Positions 8,401 to 49,300 of a DNA stretch of 64,000 nt are shown here, in pieces. The stretch is taken from the NCBI RefSeq assembly GCF_032854445.1, contig NC_088306.1, positions 25,515,764-25,579,763 on the forward strand, read 5' to 3'. Source of the DNA: Liolophura sinensis (Eukaryota > Mollusca > Polyplacophora > Chitonida > Chitonidae). Made by a program: the position numbers and the translations under genes. Below the pieces are notes generated by a model that made no database searches, had not been told where the DNA came from, and worked only from the letters and a program-made list of their open reading frames with translations. The number at the start of each line of letters is the position of its first letter. Positions within the stretch are counted from its first letter, which is position 1.

Positions 8401-11205
8401 GCCACCGGGAAGAGAATGGAACGCACAGCTAATGAAAACGAACCTGAAGGTCATAAAACCCATCAGCCTCGGCATCATTATTTTAATTAAAACTTTATAA
8501 AGTTTTTGTTTCCAGACAATTAATTTACAGAAGACAAGGTAACACGACAGAGTATGAGATTTTGTTGGGATTAAAAAATCGAACCTTTGCGTTTCATGGC
8601 AGATAAGAAATGTTTGATGAGGTGAAATGGTGCCGACAAGCAGACGCCGATCATCTCGTCCCACTTCACATCCGGGAACTCTTCCACAGGACACACGTGT
8701 TGGATACCTACAAGTAAGTATACGCCTATCTGTAGCCCCAGACAACTGATTCCCAGTTGATTATATTGGCTGACTGACTGACTGACTGATTCATTCATTC
8801 ATTCCTCCATTGGCATTTAACGCCCTGGTCTATGGCCTGAAAGTCGCAGCGAGTAAGGGGAAGTTGCGAGTGAATTCTGCATGTAAAATAAAACTTTTTT
8901 AGAAAGGAAAATTTCTTGATTTGAGAGGAAGGCTTGACGGTCTTTATACTTCGTTCGCAATCCAGCGGATGGTTGTAGGGTTGTAGGGTTGTAGGGTTCT
9001 CTCAGGCTCAGGTTTCCTCCAACTATAATGCCGGCTATCGTCGTATAAGTGAATTACATTTGAATAGGGAGTGAAAATAGAATCAAACCAAATCGGTTGT
9101 AACAATATTTCTCCTCTGTATAGCACAGTATCTAAATCTTTGAGTGACGGAAACCGGGTTGATTTGAGGGAAAACTAACGCACTTGGTCAAGTTAACTCT
9201 TGACGTGATCAACCTGATCATGTCAACCACATCCGGATTAAGTGTACGATTTTATTTATTTATTTATTGATTTGACTGGTGTTTTACGCCGTACTCAAGA
9301 ATATTTCACTTATACCACGCCTCCCAGCATTATGGTGGGAGGAAACCGGGCAGATCCCGGGGGATCATCCGCAGGCTGCTGACAGACCATCACACGTACG
9401 ACCGGAGAGTATAATGATTATAACTAATATATTTCGTTGATTACAGTGGATAATAACAAAGATTGATTGATTTATTGACTGTTGCATAACGCCGTGCTGA
9501 AGAATTTTTCACTGATATGACGGCAGTCAGGGTTGAGGAAACTGGAGTGCCCGGCGAAAAACACCCACCTTCTGTAGCTAGGTGGGCCAGGACAGAAGGA
9601 GTGTAAGTCAGAGGTCACGGGTTTACTCCGGGTTCAGTTGGTTGGTTTTTCTTTGGGTTCAGCATTGTGGTTTACTCCGGGTTCAGTTGGGTGGTTTACC
9701 CAAGGGTCCAGCTGGGTGGTTGACTCTGGGTCCAACTGGGTGGCTTACTCCAGGTTCAACTGGGTGGTTTACTCCGGGTCCAACTGGGTGGTTTACTCCG
9801 GGTCCAGCTGGATGGTTTACTCCGGGTTCAACTGGGTGGTTTACTCTGGGTTCAACTGGGTGGTTTACTCCGGGTCCAGCTGAGTGGTACACTCCAGGTC
9901 CAGCTGGCTGGTTTACTTCGGGTTCAGCTTTGTGGTTTACTCCAGGTCCAGCTGGGTGGTTTACTCCTGGTTCAACTGTGTGGCTTACTCCGGGTCCAGC
10001 TTGGCGGTTTACTCCGGGTTCAGCTAGGTGGTTTTCTCCATCCATATAGGAGTTGGACCGCGCTGATTAATGTACAGTATTCCTTTATACGATGTTAAAA
10101 AGGGGGGCGGGTCTTGGTTGATGGCTTACAGGCGTTTGCGGGTTTAAACCCGGCCTTGGACAGGGAATGTGTAGATTTCCTTCTCTCACTGTTCGTAGGG
10201 CCTTCGTGACAACAAGCGGTCGACGACGCTCCTGCGTGGGCTTACAACTATACGTCACATGTAGGAAAGTTCGCCAGTAGCTTGCCAAAGGTCTGTGGTT
10301 TAACCCGGGCACAACGGTTTCCTTCGTTGATAAAACTAACCGCCTTTGTATATGTAACTGAAACATTCTTGAGGATGGCGTTCAACAACAATAAAATAAA
10401 CACAGCGTTAAAGTATCACACATACATGTACACACCGGCATTATTAATGAGTACATCTACACCATCGGGGTAAACCGCGTCTACATTTTGACAGAAGGCA
10501 TGAATTGACGACTTCTCTGTGAGATCGACTGGTATGAAAATGACTTTTCCCGGTAACCTGTAAAGGATTGGTTGATAAGGATTCATTAATTCATCACTTT
10601 AAAAATTGTACTTGTTTCTGCCTTGCTCAGCGCTCAACAGTCAGATGTTAGAGCAAGAAAACATGACTGGTAGGCCCGGTGTCAGTATAATGTGACTCGG
10701 TGGGGTATCATGTCTGGTGCCTTCAGCATGATACTTCAGTGCAGGAAGCACTTTGGCAACATAGAATAGTCCTGCCACAAGAAGGCATAGTATATATACA
10801 CACATAACGGCCCCCTTTCGTCACGACTGAAAAATTGACGACGTAAAAAAAAACCCAAAATTTATTTATTCATCAATGGATCAACGCTTCCATACATTTA
10901 GTGAATTCCAACTTTTGTTAAATTTTATTGATTCGCTTGTAAAAAATATTAAAGCATGAATTGACATCTCCTGTCGAGCTGATCGATGAATTTATTAAGT
11001 CCAATTATTTTATGAACTCCAGAGAAACAACTGATTTGTAGTCCTATCAATCATACTTGCTCATATCCGATAGAACGTTGTCAATAACGCTTTGTTCAGC
11101 AATTCCCGTAACGATGACGTCACAGCCTCGATTTAGAAACATTTTCGCCGTAGCCAATCCAATCCCACTGGTCGATCCAGTGACCAGAACAGTCTTTCCC
11201 TCCAT
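2408..11205 (-). CDS. Short-chain dehydrogenase/reductase, D-3-hydroxybutyrate dehydrogenase-like, 8 exons
   Basis: Predicted NAD(P)-dependent oxidoreductase of the classical SDR family, closest by eye to D-3-hydroxybutyrate dehydrogenases (ketone-body/hydroxybutyrate oxidation). Coding exons on the minus strand are 11205-11057, 10557-10436, 8707-8585, 7427-7324, 5562-5490, 4768-4707, 2913-2860 and 2500-2408. All introns are GT/AG; 780 nt give 259 residues, the usual SDR size. The start is the Met of MEGKTVLVTG; an upstream in-frame Met would add 23 non-family residues and spans a possible splice acceptor. Visible motifs are the TGxxxGxG cofactor loop (T9-G16), NNAG (88-91), catalytic S141, Y154 and K158 (YSAAK), and the terminal TGTAVPLDGG. 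Compared with the bacterial enzyme, Q93, S141, K151, Y154 and Q195 are kept, but the tetrad Asn is C113, the substrate His is M143 and the Trp is F186. It may therefore be a divergent paralogue with another substrate. Introns hold 46-bp and 24-bp minisatellites and SINEs. Confidence 0.9.
3073..4235. repeat. 46-bp minisatellite, about 25 copies, in dehydrogenase intron 6
   Basis: Units of the type CAACACCATGTCTCAGCATT..CCACATTCCGCCTCACAATCATT repeat every 46 bp. Variants alternate between AGCATTCATCCAC, AACATCCATCAGC and a CACGTCCTAGTATCC form. Degenerate units continue to about 4500. Because 46 is not a multiple of three, each unit shifts frame, and stop-free stretches appear in several frames at once. 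The array lies in the intron between exons 4768-4707 and 2913-2860. Confidence 0.95.
5678..6149. repeat. Pair of ~90-bp direct repeats about 375 bp apart
   Basis: The segment beginning AAGCCTGGGTAAGTCTCAACC at 5678-5766 recurs, diverged, at 6053-6149. It carries a small insertion but the same CAAATCATAGCGAGGAGAC end. The pair lies in dehydrogenase intron 4. It could be a local duplication or the ends of a decayed element. Confidence 0.7.
6238..6352. repeat. CGAAAG-block repeat, partly fold-back
   Basis: Short blocks start with CGAAAG/CGAAAC/CGAAGC (GCGAAAGGGCGAAACAACGAAAGG) and are followed by inverted CTTTCG and TGCTTTC motifs, then TGCGAAAGAGCG. The layout resembles the CGAGATT blocks at 39.5-40.0 kb, but the core word is different. 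It sits in dehydrogenase intron 4. Confidence 0.6.
6436..6560 (-). repeat. SINE family A fragment
   Basis: Contains TGGTGTTTTCTTTTTAACCTGTACTCAAGAATATTTCACTTATACGA and GGGAAACCGGGCAGAGCCCGGGGGAAACCC, the conserved core of family A. The tRNA-like head is missing. Orientation is set by the full copy at 19408-19670. Confidence 0.85.
6716..7200. repeat. (GGTA)n microsatellite followed by family B copy
   Basis: About 180 bp of GTAG/GTAT tetranucleotide repeat (6716-6898) abut a family B copy. That copy begins TTTACGTCATACTTAACAATTTTTCAG and runs to about 7200, where the tRNA-like head degenerates. The family B copy is in minus orientation. It lies in dehydrogenase intron 4, upstream of exon 7427-7324 in window coordinates. 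Confidence 0.85.
8155..8280 (-). repeat. tRNA-like head of family B
   Basis: Read on the minus strand this carries an A-box-like TAGCACAGTTGGTAGAGCG and a B-box-like GGGTCAATCC, followed by the GTCACACCTAAGACTTTAAAAG linker. It is a truncated family B copy, not a functional tRNA gene. The same head recurs at 25.5 kb. Confidence 0.75.
8762..8806. repeat. (GACT)n/(ATTC)n microsatellite
   Basis: GACTGACTGACTGACTGATTCATTCATTCATTCC lies just beyond the acceptor of dehydrogenase exon 3. Confidence 0.85.
8971..8997. repeat. Short (GGTTGTAG)n repeat
   Basis: Three and a half copies of an 8-mer. It is superficially telomere-like, but short and internal. Confidence 0.8.
9246..9410 (-). repeat. SINE family A, partial
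   Basis: ATTTATTTATT tail on the left, then GGTGTTTTACGCCGTACTCAAG and GGTGGGAGGAAACCGGGCAG. It breaks off in CACGTACGACCGGAGAG before the tRNA-like head. A second, more diverged related piece follows at about 9466-9560. Confidence 0.85.
9625..10040. repeat. 24-bp minisatellite, about 17 copies, in dehydrogenase intron 2
   Basis: The unit CCAGCTGGGTGGTTTACTCCGGGT and TTCAACTGGGTGG variants repeat every 24 bp. A 24-bp unit keeps frame and has no stops, so both strands look coding (an octapeptide like GWFTPGPA one way, NHPVEPGV the other). There is no start context, splice evidence or homology for a protein. Confidence 0.95.
10630..10850 (+). repeat. Family B copy, headless
   Basis: Reverse orientation of the 1030-1405 copy: GGCCCGGTGTCAGTATAATG, then GCATGATACTTCAGTG, CTGCCACAAGAAGGCA and finally GACTGAAAAATTGACGACGTA. 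It lies in dehydrogenase intron 1. Confidence 0.8.
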
Positions 11206-12794
11206 ATTTATTTGACACAGAACTGCAGTAAAAATTTGTATAAAGGTGTTTTCTGTTGAATCACAATCTGCCACATAAATATAATTCTAGTATTGTATAG
11301 TATTATATATTTATTTTTATTTATTTGATTGGTGTTTTACGCCGTACTCAAGAATATGTCACTCACACGACGGCGGCCAGCATTAGGGTGGGAAGAAACT
11401 GGGCATGGCCTGGGGGAAACTCACGACCATCCGCAGGTCGCTGAGAGAACTCCCACCTATAGTATTATATAAGCGTGACACCTATTATGTAGGTCTATAT
11501 CATTATAGGCCTATATGATTATTCAAAGACATGGCAATGTTCATCACTATATCATCTTTTGACAAAAAATAACCACAATTTTCTAAATAAAGTTGCTAAA
11601 CTTTGTAAAAAAAAAATCAACCTAGATATGTTCTATCTTCAAACAATGGATTTACTCGGGCTATTCTTTGTTAGATCAGCTGCAAAACATTTGGATGACT
11701 TTCAATTCCAAATAACATACGTAATAATGATTTCCAAACACGCAATGTAGCATAAAATTAGTAACCTTAATTAGCGAAACAAAAACACGTTATATCGCTT
11801 TACCACAAGGCGTGATGAAAACGTGAATTGTTTGGGAGCGAAAAGCCAGTCATAACACTTTCGGGCCTATCTTAAAGGCGATCTCAGCAACGAATGTAGC
11901 ACGTCTGGGTTTCCGTACTTTGAGGCAGGCGCGCTGCGCCCCCAAGCGAACAACAATATTACACCAGTTGTGACGGGACTGCACAGCGTACTCGATCTAC
12001 AGAGTTTCTCAAAAGAATGAGTCGTACTTAGGCCTGGTTCCAAGGAAATATACTAGTGGCACATGCAAGCAAGATTAGTGGACAACTACCGCCTTACCTT
12101 ATCCCGAGTAAACTTAGCGTGAAGTAACTTAGCGTGTCCTCACCTTGCTACATAAAGATGCAGTGACCTCGATAACGGCCATGCATATATGGAAGCTCAA
12201 GGGAACCACGTTGCAATGCACGCACATTTCGATGTGATATCGATCGTTGTTAACTGATGCGGGGTTAGCCCTATCTCAGTGACTAAATGTATTCTTATTT
12301 AGTGTGTCATTTAGAATCATTACAACCATCAAAAGTCGTGGGCTGTAAAACTTTCAAGTCGGGATACAGATTAATCTTGCATGTTTAAACGTTACGTGAA
12401 AAGGTGATATAAAATAAAGAGTAAGGTTTAAAGGAAAATGGAGAAATGTATGCCAAAAAAGTTGAGGAAACAATTTTCATTTTTTGAGGCATGTGTTTAA
12501 TAATAACCCCCGAGAAGTTTTGATTCCACAGCTTGCTGCTTCAAATCAGGAGTTTGTCAGGTATACCTTGCGAAGGACGGTAGTTGACCATCCATAACAT
12601 TTAAAGCTCTAAAATTATTATAGCGTAGACTATGTGTATCAAAAACAGGCCCATTTTGCTGTGGAAATGTTGGCGCCTGTTCAGTCAAATCAAACCTCCT
12701 TGAAAGAAAACATATTGTAAAAAAAAACGTAACGCAAAAAAGACAGACGACTCTGATTTAATTCCCATTTAATTAAAACAGCTCTTGTCGAACT
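11206..12794. other. Intergenic stretch between dehydrogenase and LRR genes
   Basis: Contains a minus-oriented SINE family A fragment at about 11310-11455 (GGTGTTTTACGCCGTACTCAAG to ACCATCCGCAGGTCGCTGAG). The remainder is AT-rich sequence with no recognisable coding potential. It should include the dehydrogenase promoter/5' UTR on the left side and the LRR gene 3' UTR on the right, both on the minus strand. No core promoter could be assigned. Confidence 0.6.
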
Positions 12795-20727: not shown

Positions 20728-35136
<14,409 letters not shown>

Positions 35137-37039: not shown

Positions 37040-37695
37040 AGGTTGACGTTGATTTTTGTTAAGCAAGAATTAGCTACAACTGACCTGGGAGTTACTCAAA
37101 TAATGTGTGTACCATCGTTGCAAAAGCTACCCGGTTCAAAGCTCAAAGTTCATCCCTGCACCGTTCATTTTAGGCCAGGTATTGCTACAACTGCGCCCCG
37201 TGTGAAGCAGAAACACTGAGGAAGCCCGCCTCCAAATCATGTTTCCCCACAACGTCGCTATACCTTTCTAGGAATGAAATACCTCCCACTCACTCACCTG
37301 AACAGGCCATGTTGTAACTTACACAAATCAATTTCTGTTCACGGTACAGGATGTATGAACTGCAAAAGCGACAAGCTACGCGTCTACTATCACACGGAAT
37401 TTGGCAATTCGTGAATTGTGATGATGACAACATGGTGGCCGGTGACCTGTTCAGGTGAGTGAGTGGGAGGTATTTCGTTTCTACCGAGGTACAGCGGCGA
37501 TTTGTTGAAAATATGATTAGGGGGTGGGCTTCCTCAGTGTTTCTGCTTCAAGCGGAGCTCAGTTGCAGCAACGCCTGGCCTAGATTGTATGGTGCGGGGA
37601 TGAACTTCAAACTTTGAACCAGGTAGAATTTGCAACGATGGTACATACATTAGTCCAGTAACCCTCGGAGCAATTGCGGCTAAGTAAAAATCCGA
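37040..37695. repeat. Large imperfect inverted repeat (fold-back), arms ~250 bp
   Basis: The left arm (about 37040-37315) reads GTACCATCGTTGCAAAAGCTACC..GGCCAGGTATTGCT..AAGCAGAAACACTGAGGAAGCCC..ATACCTCCCACTCACTCACCTGAACAGG. The right arm (about 37430-37695) is its reverse complement with substitutions (CCTGTTCAGGTGAGTGAGTGGGAGGTAT..GGGCTTCCTCAGTGTTTCTGCTT..GCAACGATGGTAC). The spacer is about 115 bp. No protein is encoded. Likely a fold-back/MITE-type element or an inverted duplication. Confidence 0.85.
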
Positions 37696-39500
37696 CCCCC
37701 ACATTTGATTTGGGGCTGTTTCATTTCATAACACTTGAAACTGTGTTGCTTGAATGAAAGTTACCCCAGTCCGCCTAAATGTCTGTACAATGTAGAGCTA
37801 AATTATTGAAACGTGAAAGATATCTGACAGCGTGGACTGGGAAATCAATCAATTTTGCCAAACCTTGTGAACTACCAATGCGTTGTTGTTGTTGTCGAAA
37901 CAACTCTGTGCTATCTACACTCACTTCAGTAGCAGATAAATTTATCCCCAGTACATCAAACAATAACTTGGTGTGTAACTTACAGTTGGCCAAGTGTCCA
38001 ACAAAAAATCTACATCAGCTTACCAAGTTTTACCAGTAAAACGCCATTTGTTTATCAAAATACGTTTCAAGACGTCGAAACCGGAAGTTCAAGGGGGGCA
38101 CTTATCACCGGTCAGAATACATATATATATGTTTTTTTAATTACAGCATTTTAGGGTTAAGAACCTGGCAGTTATTTAAATATTTCCAAAAATGTTACTA
38201 TACTTATTATATACCGACACGAGCATTAGTTTTCTGCGATGCTACAAAAAGGCTGTCCTACAATTGAAAATGTACCCAAATGTTTAATGTTTCATATCAC
38301 TCGTACATTTACAGGATGCAGGTGCGTTCAGTCTTAGTTCAATGTTCGTTCAGGCGCTCCAGATTATCTTTGACACAAAAGCCTAAAGAGATTCATGGCA
38401 GAAACAACAGAAACCCCCTTGAAATTTATGCGAATTTCCCATGTTGCCTTTTTATTCTCTACATGCGCAAAAAGACTTTCAATCATAGGAAGGCCTACAT
38501 ATTGTTTTTGAATGATTCCGTTTTTCTGTTTTTTTTTTGTTACCTCTGGCGTGCAATGTCGGATGTGAGGAGTACATTTCATGAATAAAAAGATTAAACA
38601 TTCTGCTTGTTGTATATTTAACACATGATGTCACGGCATTTCTAGAGCCATGGACACACACAGACTATACTGTGTCCATGCAGGTAGAATAGATTCTACC
38701 TCCAGGGTGGGGTAAACAGGTAACGGCTTTCCGAATTCATATTTTCTTTAATACGATTGTAGATATAATCAGTTCAGGAAAAAAAAAACATTTACATACA
38801 AGAGGGATTTCTTTATATTTGCATGTTACAAATAATACGTAATTCCTAAATATAAATCATCTAGAAGGTTTAAATAGTGCTTAATTAGCCATTGTGTAAG
38901 AATAAAGACGTCGTCCCCATGGGTCAGTACCTGGACCCATTACCGGTACCTAGACCCGTTACCATTACCGGTCAAAAAAAAGATCCAAGTAACGTCGAAC
39001 CGAATAATAGCCACCAAGAAAATGAAAATGAAGAAAATGAAGGATCATACACACACCTGTGCACTGTAGGCTGCTAAGCACATACAACCACAATGGATCT
39101 ATGTGAAGAAAGAAGAAAAAAACGCAAAACGATTTCAGGGCATCTCCAACTGTCTAGCATCCCAAAGTTTCCGGGGTCTATACAGTCCCTGGACCCTCGA
39201 CTTTTGTGCTGGGAGAGTCAACCGATGGCCGTATACCACTTCAACATTGCTTCCCAGGCGCCTGCCTTAACACACCAGGCGTCAGTCCATTCTTGAATTC
39301 TGGTGGTGAGCATCTGAACCTTGACCCGGTCCAACAAATTGTAAAAAACATTTTCATAATGGACGGATGTACACAAAAGGAGTGTTCCTTTGTTATGTGT
39401 TCTTGGTAAATACAGAAAGTTTGACTTGGTTATTGATTATGGGGGATTTTTTTTATGGAAGCCATGCTCTCTCCTCAATATTTCCTTAAAACATGAACGG

Positions 39501-39720
39501 CGATATTTGAACGGCAGTGCGAGATTTATTCGAGATTAGGTCAAGATTAGGGCGACAACGCGAGATTCACCAAAGATGCACACGTGACTCCAACGATATT
39601 CTTACGAGAATCTCGTGCAAAAAAATCTCGCACCCTCTCCAGAATCTCGCGTTGTCCAGTGAATCTCACGTCCCCATTGGAACCTCACCCTCTCTTTCAA
39701 TTGTTGATTAAATCTCGTCT
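39501..39720. repeat. CGAGATT block fold-back, unit 1
   Basis: The left half consists of consecutive 11-nt or 8-nt blocks, most starting with C and usually CG: CGATATTTGAA, CGGCAGTG, CGAGATTTATT, CGAGATTAGGT, CAAGATTAGGG, CGACAACG, CGAGATTCACC and so on. The right half reads as the same kind of blocks on the other strand (CGAGATTCTGG, AGAGGGTG, CGAGATTTTTT). The turn is at the near-palindrome CGAGAATCTCG, 39605-39615. Confidence 0.85.
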
Positions 39721-39809
39721 GAATATGGTCTGTTTTTTTAATTTCGTCAGAATGTTGCTGTCTCCACGAAATAAGTAATTTTATACCCAAACTAAAGTTT
39801 CAAAGCTAG

Positions 39810-40011
39810 CGACATTCTCACGACAAAGCGATATTTGCACGAGATTTGACTGACAGCGCGACATTCAGGCGAGATTTAGACAACATTCAGTCGAGAAGGC
39901 GACATTTTACCCTAATCTCGCTCTCTCATGTGAATGGCGCTTGAATCTCGACCAAACCTTGCGTTCTCAACTAAATGTCGTCTGAATGCCCCTCTGTCGC
40001 CCGAATCTTAT
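39810..40011. repeat. CGACATT/CGAGATT block fold-back, unit 2, both arms in the same block order
   Basis: Left arm 39810-39910: blocks of 11,8,11,11,8,11,11,11,8,11 nt (CGACATTCTCA, CGACAAAG, CGATATTTGCA, CGAGATTTGAC, TGACAGCG, CGACATTCAGG, CGAGATTTAGA, CAACATTCAGT, CGAGAAGG, CGACATTTTAC). The right arm read on the minus strand from about 40011 gives the same length order (TAAGATTCGGG, CGACAGAG, GGGCATTCAGA, CGACATTTAGT, TGAGAACG, CAAGGTTTGGT, CGAGATTCAAG, CGCCATTCACA, TGAGAGAG, CGAGATTAGGG). It lies about 340 bp upstream of the XRRA1 ATG. Confidence 0.88.
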
Positions 40012-40345
40012 ACCATACCGACATTTACATCGACAAAATAAGTTCCAGCCTTCTTTTTCTATAAATTGTAATGTGATGAGTAAGCCAATATTAAAGATCT
40101 CATATTAACAGGGATTCGGTGAATTTCAAGTATAAAATATATTTTAATTTCTGTTTCATCGTGTTGAAAGTATACGTTGATCATGGGATAAAGATAGACG
40201 GAACTTATCTTAATCCCAGGTTGATCTTATACAGGGAGCGACATGGGAAAAATGTACGAGTTAAGGACCAAATTTTCCTCAAGGTTAGTCCTTTTTCTCC
40301 CTCTCCACACTTTTGGCTCATGTCGCTGTTGCCGTAGTGATGTAT

Positions 40346-40357
40346 CAAAATGGCGAC
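40346..40357 (+). promoter_or_regulatory. YY1/TISU-like element over the XRRA1 start codon
   Basis: CAAAATGGCGAC surrounds the ATG at 40350. It matches 10 of 12 positions of the TISU consensus SAASATGGCGGC and contains the YY1 core ATGGCG. In other animals such elements mark genes with very short 5' UTRs and housekeeping-type transcription. The functional call is inference. Confidence 0.45.
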
Positions 40358-43300
40358 GGCAGGAGTGAAGTTCGATGATGGATCAGGGGGGTTTGCCGCT
40401 AATTGTTTTCCAGTCCGAACTCTTTTTCGACAAAGTGATGAAGGTTTGTTGTAGCTAACAATAGCACTGTACTGGAACGTTGATTTAAACAAAACCAGAG
40501 ATTAAATGATGTTCACAGTTGGAAAGTGTGAATGATTGAAATTATCAGTGCTAGTTGTTGTTGTACTACGTGTCCTATGGTCGCTTACTCTGCCGCACGT
40601 AATGTCAAAGATCCCGTCGCTTCATATATCGTTACAAAGAAGATAGTGTCATGTTTTCCCAAAATTACGAGACATTGGATTAAAATGTGTAATGTGGCAA
40701 AATATCCGTCGAGACAATGCCAATCAATTCCCCCAAGGTAGAAATGATCAAGAGTCGTTTCAGAGACAGCAATGATTATTGATACATCAGAATAAGGCAC
40801 ATTTGCATTTTAGATGGACGCCATTTTTTTAATTGAAATGTTACGAGATCTCACGGTACACGATGGCCGACAAGTAGCAGTGTATCGTTTGACAGGTTGA
40901 ACTACAACAGCCTATGTTTTAAACTAGCAGTGGCATGCTTAATACATTAAATGTCTGTTTCATTGAAATTTTGCATTGGAAGTCATGCCCCTATTTGCAG
41001 TAGCTTAAAGTGAAAACAATGGAAAAATTGAAAAATACCTAGTAGAAAGTGTTGTTTTGAAATGTTGCCATTTTATAGGCCGTGAAAAGCATTTGCAACC
41101 TCAAACTTCAAAGTCCACTGTCCGTGACTGGATGCTAGTTTAAATTGATGATGGCTGATCTTTTGTGGCAAGTGTAGTGGCACACATCCTGAAATGCGAA
41201 TGTAAAAACACTGAAATATAAGTGTGTCACTTATGTACCAGTGGCTTTGGCACAAAAACTACTGCATAGAAATCCATCCACAACACACTTGGTGTGAGAA
41301 CAATTCAAGGTATCCTAATCCAGAAATAACGATTCATTTAATTATTATCAGGTCTGTTTCTTGCACACCTGAAACTTCTGATATTAGTGTACTGACTGCA
41401 TCAGGTGTCATGTCTGACATGCGATGTGTTCCATTGAGGCATTAGAAAGTATCTCATCACTGAGATCAGCTTGGGACAAGAAAACACTCTGGTGATAATT
41501 CTGAAACAGGTCTACTGTAATACGAAACAGTGACACCCAGTTAAATGTACCGTTATGCATAATACATGTAATATACACTTCTGTTTCTCAGCGGCTGGAG
41601 CCTGGTTGGTGGCTCACAGAGCAGAACAGAGGCGCAGGTTTAAGGCCATTCTGTGCACAAGGCCCAAAACTTTCTCCCAAATTCGTGAAGAAAGAAAGAA
41701 GACAGAAAGAGAAAACAGGAGAGTCACAAACAGAAATGGAAAACACCCTGAAGATGAGCAGACAGATGATTTCGTCCTGGATGGATTCTTTCTGGTATAA
41801 AATTGCTGTCCTTTAACAGTTCCTTGCTCAGGCTGTAAAGCTTTATACACTTCCTTGGTTGAGATCATACATAGCTTATTGAGTTGCCTGTTCAAATGCT
41901 GCTCTTTCCAGCTCTGTAGAAGCTTTGTGATAACAGGATTATTGAGGAGTTTTGGCACGTTGTTCATGAAGGACATATTGTGGTGATTTTCTCCACGCTT
42001 ACTTGCGGGTTTCCCCTTCCCTTCGACGTTCAAGATCATCTTATGAGTCCTTCTCATGCTGGCTGCCTTTCCGGCCATACGTGGGAAAGTCTGTCAGCAA
42101 CTTGCGGATGGTCATGGGTTTCTCCCTGGTTCTGCCTGCTTTCCTCCCACCATAATGCTGGTGGCCATTGTATAACCACCTCCAGCATTATGGTGGGAGG
42201 AAACAAGAGGAAGCCTGGCAGAAATCAGAGGAAACCAGGCAGAAATGTTCTTAAGTATGGCATAAAACCTCGAATCAAATACTGTAAATAAATGAATAAC
42301 AAGATCATTTTAAAAGAAAAGACAACAGATAATTTAACCTGACTTATTTCTGGAGAGAGATGGTAACAGACATAGCAATTTTGTTCTGACAGCCTTGGTT
42401 GGTCTGTAAATGAACTTTTAATCTGGAATTCTCACAGAGCCTTGGGCCTATTGACGTTTCAGATTTCAATATATGTTTACAATCCATACCCGTTCTAACT
42501 TGTTCAGTCTCTGTGTATTCCAAACGACATCGGAAAGAGCTATATATCTCTCAGCACCATACAGAATGCTCAGCCTCCATTCCAGGCTTATCTGAAAACT
42601 ATAGAAATCTCAGAAAATGAAAGAATCAAAACATGCCTCCTTGCATCTTTTAGGGTTTAAATGTTCAAAAACTGCAGCCAGCATTATTTTTTCCTGATTT
42701 CAGGGAATAATATATAAATTTTAATTTCTGCAATTAATATAGAATACTTCCAATTAAAAATTAAGATCACTGATTGGTTTTATTTATCATATGCATCCAT
42801 TCAGGGTATGTAAATATTTGAAAGATACACAGTAAACCATGAAAATAATTTTTTTTTTCTTAAAAATAATATTTTTCTTGTGAACTATAATTTGATAATT
42901 TTTAAATACTTCTGTTATAGTGAACACATAAAATTGCATAAGATGCCTGCAAACTGACTCCAAATGCATACCTTATGGCAGCCGTGAGGTGGTTCTTTGG
43001 ATCATAGTAAGCTATAACCTGTACACCATGCTGAAATATTCCAGCCAAACAAGTTTTGTATGGTGGTGAAATAAATTATTATTTGCTTGACAAAAAGCAT
43101 TCGATAATAAGATCGGAGACATCAGAGACATTTATTACAACTCTGATTAGAGGAAAGCTGTTGAACCCGAGTGTCAGACTGGGATGCGCTTTGGGGACAA
43201 AACCGAGTGACAGACTGGGATGCGCTTTGGCGACAAAACCGAGTGACAGACTGGGATGCGCTTTGGGGACAAAACCGAGTGACAGACTGGGATGCGCTTT

Positions 43301-46300
43301 GGGGACAAAACCGAGTGACAGACTGGGATGCGCTTTGGCGACAAAACCGAGTGACAGACTGGGATGCACTTTGAGGACAAAACCGAGTGACAGACTGGGA
43401 TGCGCTTTGGAGACAAAACCGAGTGACAGACTGGGATGTGCTTTGGGGACAAAACCGAGTGACAGACTGGGATGCGCTTTGGGGACAAAATCGAGTGACA
43501 GACTGGGATGCGCTTTGGGGACAAAACCGAGTGACAGACTGGGATGCACTTTGGGGACAAAACCGAGTGACAGACTGGGATGCGCTTTGGCGACAAAACC
43601 GAGTGACAGACTGGGATGTGCTTTGGAGACAAAACCGAGTGACAGACTGGATGCGCTTTGGGGACAAAACCGAGTGACAGACTGGGATGCGCTTTGGCGA
43701 CAAAACCGAGTGACAGACTGAGATGCGCTTTGGCGACAAAACCGAGTGACAGACTGGGTTGCGCTTTGGTGACAAAACCGATGACAGACTGGAATACACT
43801 TTAATGACATAGGACCTGGTATGGTAAGGCAGGGAATCGGCCCGTGCAAGAAACTGTGGACCTTGAGTAGCAAAAATGACTATAGCTGGGAGTGATAGCT
43901 ACTGACACACTTGAAAGGCTACTTCTTTTTTCAGTTTTGTTTTACATTCTTTCCTGTTATATGGCAAGCATGGCGAGCATATGAAGCTTCAAACATGCAC
44001 TGAAGCCATGTACAGGTCATAAAATCGAAAAATTAAAGCTGGCCCCAGTCATGCTTAATTGTCTTTTTTTTGGATTAGACACTGTACAGTTATTAAAACC
44101 ACTGCACTACAAATGTAACTTTCTGAAAAATTCTAGAGCACGCAGTTGTTCACCAATCAATTAAATAAATATATAACAAATGTAACTTTCAGCCTTAGAC
44201 TTCCTCTACGCGTAACATGTTAAAGTTAATGATAGCCAGAGAACCACGTGCTCTCTACCAGTATCCACATGTGATGTCGCTATAGTTGCCAAATGTTACG
44301 TACTACCATAGCTTATCCATTGTAATTCATAATAACACTTATTTAGTGCGAGGTGGCCTTTATCTTACAAAAACAGAGCCACAAAGATTCAAACTCTTTG
44401 CCAATAAGCATCCTTTCCTGTGCAGCGACTTCGTTAGTCCACTGTACTGTGGAGGATGTCTGATAGACCATGGCAGAAATACAATTTTTAAACTTGTTAA
44501 AATGTGACAAAACTCCTCACAGTATAAAGTTTATGTTTTACAATGAAGACAAACGTTAACCAAAATTAAGGCAGTGTTGCTTACTTTGAAGTGCCACCTG
44601 GTTGTGCAACGTTAGAAAAATAGAAAGTTAAGCTTTTTAAACATTACATGGGATACTTTATTTATTCAAATAAACATTTGGCCTACCATTGACGTTTCTT
44701 TTAACCGGAAGCTTCTTGTTCACAGAATTTCAAAACTTTAAAGTACATGTTAAAAATATACTCATTACATCCTGATAATCACACAGCATTGGTTGTTGTT
44801 GTCTTCATTACATAGGTTTAATGAATTATTTGTTGCATCATCATTTTATTTTACTACATGCATGTCAGTATCAAAGTGAAGAGTAGATTCCGAATTTATT
44901 TATTTATTTGATTGAAGGCCTGTCAGCAACCTGTGGATGGTCGAGGTTTTCCCCCGGGCTCTGCCCGGTTTCCTCCCACCATAATGGTGGCCGCCGTCGT
45001 ATAGGTGAAATATTCTTGAGTACGGCGTAAAACACCAGTCAAATAAATAAATAAATATATAAATAAATAAATTTATTTGATTGGTGTTTAACACCAATAC
45101 TCAAGACTACATGTATTTGACTTATGATGGGAGGAAACTGGGCAGAGCCTAGAGAAACCCACGACCATCGGCAGGCTAGGTAAATTCCAAAGAAATATAA
45201 AACGATGAAGATGAAAAATTTCCAAAATTATCTGGAATTCAAGATGGTCTTTTTTTTTTCTTTAACATGAGTTGGATATCATTTGCAGATGTTATGTTAA
45301 AATGTTAAATGCAATGTTAAAAAAATAGGCATCAAACAGAAATATCAAGCCCGTGTAAATTTACCCAAAATATGTTGTTTGATTTTCAGCTGCGCCACTG
45401 TTGTGTGGATGACCCCTCTGACCTGTGCTCCATCAACATTGCTGGTCAGGAAATGTCAGATGTCAAGGAAGAGGACTTGGAAATGTTTGACAATGTGGCC
45501 TATGTCAATGCCGCAGAGAATTATCTCCCCTTAGGTAGCCTATCAATAATCATAGACATGAGGGGAATATAATGCTGTTGTAATTATGCAATGGCAAATG
45601 TTAAGAAAATGTATGTATTAGTATATTAATAGTCATGTGAAGAGAACTGACCACTGATAGACGTTCAGAATCCAACACCTTCCACAACAGTAATATTTTT
45701 TTTTTAGTAAGTGGTCTGTTTTAATAGTATTAAATGAATTAAGTTACGTTGTACTTGAATATATGTTTGGTGTATTGTTGACACTTATATGGAGAGCTGT
45801 ATAAAAAGTTATCAAATGTGGCCTTGAGCAGAAAATTTATGCATTTGCTGCTCTCAATGTGTGTGGGGCCTTGGTGACTTTAAACTACCTGGGACCTCCC
45901 TGGCCGACTGGTGTGCAATAACCCAGAAACATCTCACCAATGCGTTAGCTGTGAGTTCCAAGTCCAAATCATGCTGACTTCCTCTCCGGCTGTATGGAAT
46001 TAAGGTCTGCTAGCAGCCTGTGGATGGTCATGGGTTTCCCTGGGCTAGTCCTGTTTTTCTCCCACAATAATGCTGATTCCGTCGTATAAGTGAAATGTTC
46101 TTGAATATGACGTGAAAGAGCAATGAAATATTTCCCACTGAAGACATATTTAACTGGTTGGGAGGCCTTAAAAAACTTTTACTGTCAAGTTGCTAGTAAA
46201 ACACAAAATAAACCTGGCGATGAAACAATTAAATAACTAACTGTTTTTTTTCTTTTTCAGAGGCATTTAATCACTTTCCGATAATCAGAGAGCTGGAGGT

Positions 46301-49300
46301 GCCTCTGAACGGATTGAGAGGCCTAAAGCTTGAACCTGGTCACTTCCCATACTTAGAAGTCAGTGCTACAATTATCTTATTTCATCAAAGAAATAAATAT
46401 TAAATAAATAAACAATCCTTTTTTTGTCATATTTGGAAATACTAAATATATATCAAATGCGGTTTGATTATGTATATTTAAATGACTTTGGGTCACCCAC
46501 ATCAAACACATGTAAAACTAGCTGTTGGTTTTCCTTCCCTCTGAAGAATCTGCTGATGGATTTACTCTACTAGTAAGACTGGGAGTCTTGGCTCATATCA
46601 CCAGTAAAATCCATTTCTTATTGGCTCCCTTGTACTTTGGCTTATTTCTTACCCTGAGCGTCGGCGTTGGCATCCAATATTAGAGAAAGGAATGTTAAAC
46701 AAAATGTTAGCGATTTGTGTCTTAAAAAGTTATGCATGTATTGAGCTCAGGGTTCACACACATGTAGAGCAGAATAGCATGAGACAGATATTCCATTGTT
46801 GACTAGGTGTGCATATATTAAGTACCGTAAATTACTGAATTTCTTACTCAGTGTATTGTGTATTAGAATCACTGTTACTATTAGAATCACAAAATGTTAG
46901 ACGTGGTATCTTAAAAAGCATTGTATGTATTGACCTGAAGTTTTACATGCATATAAAGCGAATGACGCAAGGGAGATGTTCCATCACTGATGCTCTGTGA
47001 GCAGATTAATTACCATAAATTACCAAATTCACGATTTCAGCCAAAGTTTTGCTTTCATGTGTCTTATACAGTCAAGCTTTTGTGCTACCAATTCTAAATT
47101 TACACATGTCTGAGCTTTTTCTTATCAGACCCATGTTAATCAGCCTTGCTGTACTAGGGAGTCCACCCTATTTGATGGAACAGCTGGTTGAGAGAGAGTT
47201 ATACTCAAGACTTCCATAAGTTTTTAAAGAGGCCATATACTTAATTGTGCTTCTCACATTTATTTTCAGATGCTGGATTTGTCGTATAACAACTTATCAC
47301 AGGAAGACATTTTATCTGTTGGAATTTTGCAACATCTTAGAGTTCTCCAGCTCTCAGGGAATAACTTCAAGTCTCTACCCATAGATATGACATTACCTTA
47401 CAGAGATGAGAAGGGGTAAGGACACACTTCTCATTAATTCTTTTTAGTTTTCAGTTTTTAATCAGATCATCTGCTATTCTATAATAATTTGCAAAAAATT
47501 TGAAATTGAATTTGCTCTGATCAATTTTTTGATCCATCACCTCTTTACTTGTGTTTTCATCTTTTCTAGGAGGCGTGCTCGCTACCCCAAACTGGAAGTC
47601 CTCATGCTGGATGATAACAAACTCTCTGATGTCAGTGTATTTGCCTGCCTGGCTGGACTAAGATGGTATGCACATGTAGGAACTTGCCGCAAGCTAATCG
47701 GTTTTGTGTCTTTCAAGGTTTATTCTCTTTCTTCCCTGTTCTCATTTTGGTGTATAAGGACTGGGCTGCAACATCAAGCACATGCAGGAAGTAATGTTGA
47801 AAATAACTTTAAATCCATAAGCAAACATTGCAGCATCAATCTAGCCTTCTGTTAAGCAGTGGATGAATGCTTTAAATATCCTTCCCATATTTATTTTGAT
47901 GTAATCTGGAGAACTTTGGCAATTCCAATTGCTAAATTGGTCATCATGTAACTACCTCAGTTGTACTCAATAGGAGTGAACAGAGCCGGCCAGTACTGAC
48001 CTGTATCACAGGTGACAGCCATACTTTTTCCTGTTATATAATGTCTTTGATTTGGACATCAATAAAAAAATATCCTTTCCATATATTTATATGTGTGTGA
48101 TATTTTTCAAAATCATTTTTCATCGTATAGAGTCAAATTTAAGCTAAAATCTAAAGCTACCTGTGAAAGCAAATCTCCACTGTATTTGTTACAAGTCTCT
48201 GTTATAGTATTAATGTGCTCTTTTTTATGCATTTTTCAGCTTACGACAGCTAAACTTAGAAAAGAACGAGTTATATTTTGTCCCTCAGCTCATGGTGTTG
48301 GACGGACGTGTTAAAACAAGTGACGAAGATCTTGGCTCGAAACAACGCAAAAAATCTGGGCGTACTGGTCGGCCATCAAGTCAGCCTTATCACATGGACA
48401 GAATAAAGGAGCTGTTAGAGCAGCGCTTAGAGAACACCCCTCGGGGTCCCACGGAGGACAATGGGGCGAGTTGTGGATTGGACACTGGGGAGGGCAATGG
48501 GATAGGCACTGAGGAGGACGCTGGTGGGGACCCAGTGGATTCCAGCCCACTAACAACACAGGAAAATTCACCGCCAATGAAAACAGAGGACTCTGGAGGT
48601 ATTTTAGTGTGAAAATTTGTAGCATGAAGGTTTATAGTGTGAAGGTTTTTAGCATGAAGGTTTCCAGAGTGAAGGTGTTTAGTGTGAAGGCTTTTAGTTT
48701 GACGGTTTTCAGGATGAAGGTTTTCAGGGTGACAGTTTTTAGGGAGAACATATTTAGTGTGAAGGCTTTTAGCGTGAAGGTCTTCAGGGTGACGGTTTTC
48801 AAGGAGGGCGTATTTAGTGTGAAGGTTTTCAGGATTACGTTTTTTAGTGAGGAATCTGCCTCTGGCCTCCATGCTAAACTGAATGAGTTTGTAACTCTGG
48901 TTCCAATTGTTGACAAGTGTATGTATGGTTAAATAATCAAAAAGTCAGTAAGCCAGGATTAAAAAGCACGCCTTTGAATAACTTATGGATTCATTTAAAT
49001 CCTGATGAAATAATCTAGTTGATCCAGAAATTGAGTGAGAGGTTACATGGTGTATTTCATCTAAAGTTTCAGTTATGCAAAAATATACTTTCACAGACAT
49101 ATAAGGGCATTAAAATGACACTGTTAGCGCCAACAGTTCAAGTTTTCAGAGAAGAATAATTCTTCACAAAAAAAGACAAAACTGAAGTGGCTGTATAAAC
49201 TAGAAGAATAAATCAGAATCCTTCGAGAAAATTACATCACTTTCAAGATACTCAACTTTTGTACATAAATTTCACAAGTATTTGGTAAATTTCTATATTG

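Follow-up and report, generated by a model that had tools for sequence, protein, structure and literature searches.

What are the short CGA-led blocks that face one another in two neighbouring groups at positions 39501-40010 of the 64-kb window (the whole stretch of DNA analysed here), and is it really the length and order of these blocks, more than their sequence, that has been kept? The first-pass annotation wrote both groups as inverted repeats made of consecutive blocks of exactly 11 or 8 nt with a core such as CGAGATT or CGACATT.

The motif CGA[GC]ATT occurs 20 times in the window (11 on the plus strand and nine on the minus strand), and 16 of these copies lie within 39501-40025, comprising 9/11 of those on the plus strand and 7/9 of those on the minus strand. 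A chain model that learns a 7-nt core and leaves the spacing free between 5 and 20 nt, fitted by EM, returned 33 steps of 11 nt (19 steps), 19 nt (seven), 8 nt (five), 18 nt (one) and 15 nt (one) with a score of 142, such that 31 of the 33 steps fall on a lattice of 8, 11 and 19 nt in which 19 is 11 plus 8. The top chain among 60 shuffles with six EM rounds scored 42, and 300 shuffles with 12 rounds, as in the real run, gave a mean of 20, a standard deviation of 8.5 and a maximum of 50, so that the parsing into blocks withstands comparison with shuffled DNA. In a motif-free run, in which the EM starting points were restricted to the 7-mers most frequent in the region itself, without a CGA seed, the region scored 143 with five starts and 144 with eight; 150 other regions of the window, all outside its listed tandem arrays, scored a mean of 25 with five starts (standard deviation 9, maximum 63). 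The regular spacing of the core is thus confirmed, at a level far above both shuffles and other regions. Core-to-core steps in the motif-free fit are of 11 nt (14), 19 nt (12), 15 nt (one) and 18 nt (one), so that the arrays are most simply described as repeats of a unit with an 11-nt form and a 19-nt form, the latter extending the former by a purine-rich piece of 8 nt, NGANANNG. The observed/expected CpG ratio is 1.42 in 39501-40010 compared with 0.61 in the window. The components of the two units are as follows.

39501-39757, unit 1, whole.
39501-39604, plus strand, left array of unit 1, reading inward 11-8-11-11-11-8-11-11-11-11 (EM chain; chain scan score 43.1).
39605-39757, minus strand, right array of unit 1 (EM chain; chain scan score 25.8 for 39620-39728).
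39594-39615, no strand, dyad centre of unit 1, 22 nt, loop-less, in which the facing cores abut (sequence and fold).
39810-40010, unit 2, whole.
39810-39910, plus strand, left array of unit 2, 11-8-11-11-8-11-11-11-8-11 (EM chain; chain scan score 43.4).
39910-40010, minus strand, right array of unit 2, with the length order of the left arm when read from 40010 inward (chain scan score 28.1).
39900-39920, no strand, dyad centre of unit 2, 21 nt, loop-less, in which the facing cores overlap by one base.
40019-40029, plus strand, lone CGACATT core beyond unit 2 (motif scan).

All four arrays face inward, pointing right, left, right and left. With the blocks assigned to the lattice by hand after EM, and leaving out the innermost block of unit 1, they contain 30 blocks of 11 nt, 13 of 8 nt and one of 10 nt. 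The 11-nt block reads CGA[G/C]ATTYNNN, in which positions 1-3 and 5-7 are well kept, position 4 is mixed G/C, position 8 is pyrimidine-rich and positions 9-11 are nearly free; the last position of the 8-nt block is G in 12/13. Two blocks of the left array of unit 1, at 39572 and 39583, are poor matches to the motif. The right array of unit 1 reads 11-11-8-10-11-11-8-11-8-11-8-11-8-11 inward from 39757, followed by 4 extra nt and then the innermost 11-nt block at 39605-39615. Lengths of exactly 11 or 8 nt therefore hold nearly throughout, but with two exceptions, both in this arm. Chain scanning identified no second copy of the lattice in the 64-kb window, where the best chain elsewhere scores 3.9 compared with 25.8-43.4 for the four arrays. 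Degenerate coding repeats with a period of 11, 19 or 30 nt were set aside by reasoning only.

Prokaryote and viral sequences served as a control and not as a search for relatives, because those collections contain hardly any animal DNA. The exact module pattern has 0 matches in viral contigs and 0 in prokaryote genome contigs, and looser patterns returned 17 (viral), 0 and 42 (prokaryote) stretches. The resulting 59 loci were scored on both strands with the lattice model, and among the best 14 of 118 rows 13 have 11-nt steps only and are plain 11-nt tandem repeats; the other, L007 (score 36.9), has two 19-nt steps at which the cores are unlike CGANATT, and 8-nt steps are absent from these 14. 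We note that one viral contig carries an 11-nt tandem array (L001:7455-7775) with CGAAATTTTCA and CGAAATTTTTC variants that have no relation to the 8-nt piece.

A more complex picture is seen when the arms are compared with each other. The two arms of unit 2 do share one length order over 10 blocks each, as first reported, and they align gap-free, meet at 39910 and are alike at 61/101 positions; a gap-free inverted repeat would keep block order trivially too. The left and right arrays of unit 1 differ in block order. In the observed block grammar an 8 never comes after an 8 and comes after an 11 about half the time, and two random 10-block arms obeying this grammar agree by chance with p=0.014, or p=0.029 for agreement in at least one of two units. 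The proposal that length and order are kept better than sequence is thus sound for length, which is very strict, but for order it amounts to a p of about 0.014 in one of the two units.

Little else connects the arms block by block. In unit 2 paired blocks have a mean identity of 0.616, compared with 0.629 for unpaired blocks matched in length (p=0.91 by permutation), with 25% agreement in the tails of paired 11-nt blocks, and exact permutation of blocks in the 7-block modules gives p from 0.17 to 0.98. The best local matches of the six arm pairs, each compared with 300 draws from the block profiles, have p values of 0.59, 0.017, 0.76, 0.27, 0.64 and 0.15, in which the own-arm pairs are those at 0.59 (unit 1) and 0.15 (unit 2), and the lowest, between the left arrays of units 1 and 2, is marginal among six. 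A perfect 15-nt inverted match in unit 1 (39554-39568 with 39642-39656) lies inside the range of the profile draws. In neither unit did the permutation and local-match tests find the arms to be inverted copies beyond the unit motif.

The two units form more stable DNA folds than do dinucleotide-shuffled sequences (z -2.8, 0 of 100; z -2.3, 5 of 200), as would a hairpin-forming element, whether a source of hairpin RNA or a cruciform, in which arm pairing is the function. However, paired blocks match no better than unpaired ones, 54% (unit 1) and 69% (unit 2) of 200 block permutations within length classes fold as stably as the real order, and no Rfam family comes near threshold on the array; the sole Rfam match, to ceN89 at 39059-39143 outside the element, reaches 20.9 of 48 bits, far below the gathering score. 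The suggestion of a hairpin element is thus weakened, pairing not being favoured beyond the shared motif, and we consider it highly improbable. The arms pair because both consist of that motif. To speak of two neighbouring fold-backs is justified in comparison with shuffles but not in comparison with the units' own blocks in permuted order, and since pairing, fold stability and shared order show little beyond the motif, the region is better described as four arrays of a single degenerate motif in alternating orientation.

The structure of these arrays is one of a kept core, a nearly saturated 4-nt tail and strict length. Across the six comparisons among four 7-block modules (aligned by the lattice, with one gap in the right array of unit 1), the cores are alike at 214/279 position pairs and the tails at 40/144, which is near chance, and the tail columns and position 4 contain three to four letters each. 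Neighbouring blocks do not resemble one another more than distant blocks do: tail identity is 0.332 at lags 1-2 and 0.332 over all pairs (p=0.50), with 0.38 at lag 1 alone. Growth by short-block duplication, as initially proposed, therefore finds no support. As controls we used five other arrays of the window, of which two were trimmed, and their variable columns hold two to three letters, mostly two; neighbour similarity is seen in 2/5 (p=0.036, and 0 of 500) and not in the other three (p=0.12, 0.40 and 0.66). Because the tails are near saturation and neighbours show no excess likeness, the CGA arrays are not young, and either they are old and have retained core and spacing, or they were put together from blocks that already differed.

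These observations bear on a possible though less probable origin, in which the region was never a transposon but a purely local degenerate minisatellite with a 19-nt unit and an 11-nt deletion form, whose inversion and duplication took place at this site through template switching or foldback priming. Head-to-tail units, a minisatellite feature, are present within each arm. Selected TRF rows place about 16% of the window in tandem arrays whose periods range from 15 to 85 nt and most of which are nearly indel-free, and arrays such as those at 48597-48829 (15-nt unit, 69% matches, 0% indels) and 24125-24417 (16-nt unit, 86%, 0%) keep their unit length despite strong divergence, so that strict unit length alone is not special here. 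The lack of another lattice copy in the window and of a clear target-site duplication (TSD) also fits a local origin. Against it, arms produced by an inverted duplication in place would have been identical at first, and unit 2 keeps no sign of this at block level; neighbouring blocks, moreover, show no excess likeness, which is present in two of the five control arrays and not in the other three.

The contrast between core and tail, together with the strict spacing and CpG richness, would equally be expected of a selected protein-binding array, such as one belonging to the downstream gene's promoter, whose cores and spacing are read by a multimeric host protein, and the arrays are followed, 340-850 bp further on, by a putative start codon at 40353. 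An array of transposase sites predicts an identical pattern, however, strict unit length is also a property of other arrays in the window, and the 10.5-bp phase coherence is ordinary for such steps; a host binding array is accordingly unlikely in our estimation. The coherence is 0.82 for the left array of unit 1, 0.67 for both arms of unit 2 and 0.21 for the right array of unit 1, the last calculated on the chain without the 8-nt starts. The coherence of unit 2 is also that of a pure 11-nt array (0.67) and is reached in 30% of random orders, and for this reason coherence is not taken as evidence of phasing; nothing points to the phased array of the first-pass annotation beyond the 11-nt step itself. 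A related proposal is that the ends of a transposon family, or a host locus, embody a strict two-length code, with a 7-nt core at exactly 11 or 19 nt and free tails, in which a multimeric DNA-binding protein tolerates an 8-nt spacer module and spacing and order, rather than sequence, are inherited. This predicts both the core/tail contrast and the two-step lattice that are seen, and order as a part of the code is disfavoured because the arms of unit 1 have no common order; we judge the proposal quite unlikely.

The putative downstream gene would begin with a segment at 40353-40444 that resembles the start of an XRRA1 protein. A domain scan covering eight ORFs of the window, which was also the extent of the search for a transposase, gave no match for this putative first exon and an LRR_8 match at 47451-47852 below threshold (18.2 bits, cut-off 27), and the name XRRA1 is thus not confirmed. 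Directly upstream of the putative start codon is a small inverted repeat (40237-40255 and 40309-40327) reading AGCGACATG.../...CATGTCGCT, and adjoining the putative XRRA1 exons is a 15-nt tandem array (48513-48932) in an open frame encoding VKVFS-like five-residue repeats. Among the other features of the window, a larger MITE-like inverted repeat at 37070-37309 and 37443-37683 has arms of 175 and 68 nt with 81-82% complementarity and is without the CGA lattice. Fragments of a repeat, GGTGTTTTACGCCGTACTCAAGAATATT..., common in molluscs, are present at 45024-45095, 9267-9347, 42119-42224 and 10353-11367, in several copies and orientations. Fragments of a repeat starting GGTGTTTTACGCCGTACTCAAG resemble one known from molluscs, for which reason the window is taken to be probable mollusc DNA, and a literature search with 25 bases of the GGTGTTTTACGCCGTACTCAAG repeat yielded no match.

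The boundaries of the units were inspected for signs of insertion. No direct repeats of 7-12 nt bracket unit 1 or the pair of units. For unit 2, two 11-mer pairs with one mismatch each are present, at 39766/40033 and 39777/40004; among 1500 random loci, at least one such pair is found in 3.9% and two distinct pairs in 0.13%. The first pair consists of the following strings.

39766-39776, plus strand, 11-nt string that recurs with one mismatch at 40033-40043; candidate TSD or common arm end.
40033-40043, plus strand, second copy of the string, the mismatch being CG to CA.

This pair could be a TSD whose mismatch is a CpG change. Both pairs could alternatively represent common outer ends of the two right arms, which align with an 8-nt gap. 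A terminal inverted repeat outside the arrays was not found, the best 16-mer match being 11/16 against a background mean of 10.5 and maximum of 13.

Inverted arms made of short tandem units are a familiar arrangement, and the Drosophila FB and sea-urchin TU elements have units of 10-31 bp and 15 bp, respectively. By description, these differ from the region analysed here in sequence, lengths and hosts. A closer parallel is Tm1, a Phantom-like Mutator/Foldback element of root-knot nematodes, for which excerpts of the published account (PMC3169594) describe CG-led units in the terminal inverted repeats (TIRs) of 13-15 bp (8-21 bp overall, about 14), with the consensus CGATTCAGTATCCGC and a 5' end better conserved than the 3' end. 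The same excerpts give an average of 431 bp for the non-coding MITE-like copies, TSDs of 8-10 bp in 45/53 complete elements, an average identity of 93% between the two TIRs of an element, and defined terminal motifs as well as a GA-rich motif D, GGGAAAAGGGGA, which the MITE-like copies lack. On this partial account, the likeness lies in inverted arms with a variable number of short CG-led units that are better kept at their 5' ends, in unit numbers that differ between arms and in a MITE-like size of a few hundred bp. The differences are that the units here are of 11 and 8/19 nt whereas those of Tm1 scatter around 14 nt (8-21), and that the terminal motifs, motif D, the 8-10 bp TSDs and the 93% arm identity were not found here. 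Motif C of Tm1 (CGATTCAGTATCCGC) has 0 matches in the 64-kb window at up to 3 mismatches, and motif D (GGGAAAAGGGGA) has five with 2 mismatches where 4.1 are expected, none of them in the element. With no convincing TSD, and with terminal motifs and arm identity missing, we leave the CGA region outside Tm1 and every named family.

Galileo, a foldback-like element of the P superfamily, also carries tandem repeats inside long inverted arms, and in the excerpted description the TIR-internal repeats bind transposase, with several THAP sites per arm (PMC3688188); unlike this region, it has TIRs of more than 1 kb, much longer repeats and a known transposase. Tetris of Drosophila virilis likewise has arms with internal tandem repeats and, again from excerpts, is a foldback element without a transposase gene, differing from the present case in its 220-bp repeats, TIRs of up to 1.7 kb and identified TSDs (PMC4079207). 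In the titles and abstract openings of the literature searched, we found no account of an 11/19 lattice or of a mollusc foldback element.

Set beside these elements, the region may well be what remains of one or two non-autonomous (MITE-like) DNA transposons of the foldback type, a reading to which we give roughly an even chance, with the blocks as putative transposase-binding sites. In its favour are the strict lattice, the core/tail contrast with tails of three to four letters, the high CpG content, and the Tm1 and Galileo parallels; long inverted arms of short tandem units are present, as four inward arrays and two loop-less dyads. Against it are the absence of a convincing TSD, of terminal motifs, of arm-to-arm identity and of a second copy in the window. 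A plausible scenario is that each original copy comprised two inward-facing arrays of a short unit in 11-nt and 19-nt forms, the cores of which would have been bound by the transposase that an autonomous partner supplied, with a multimer assembling on the arrays at strict spacing and pulling the ends together. The tails would then have diverged, with core and spacing maintained across the family, and the copy, having inserted upstream of the gene near 40.35 kb, would now be decaying without a function of its own. The description of the locus as an undescribed fold-back transposon is apt insofar as a foldback-type element with short blocks is the best reading, but 'undescribed' fits only the sequence, because foldback elements with short-block arms are already a described kind.

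As a matter of method, two opposed arrays of one degenerate motif mimic an inverted repeat with conserved block order, and such mimicry arises even though the arms show no detectable block-by-block descent. If the region is of the foldback type, it would provide an unusually clean case of what short arm repeats are for, as the outlasting of all else by core and spacing is what an array of sites for a multimeric transposase predicts.
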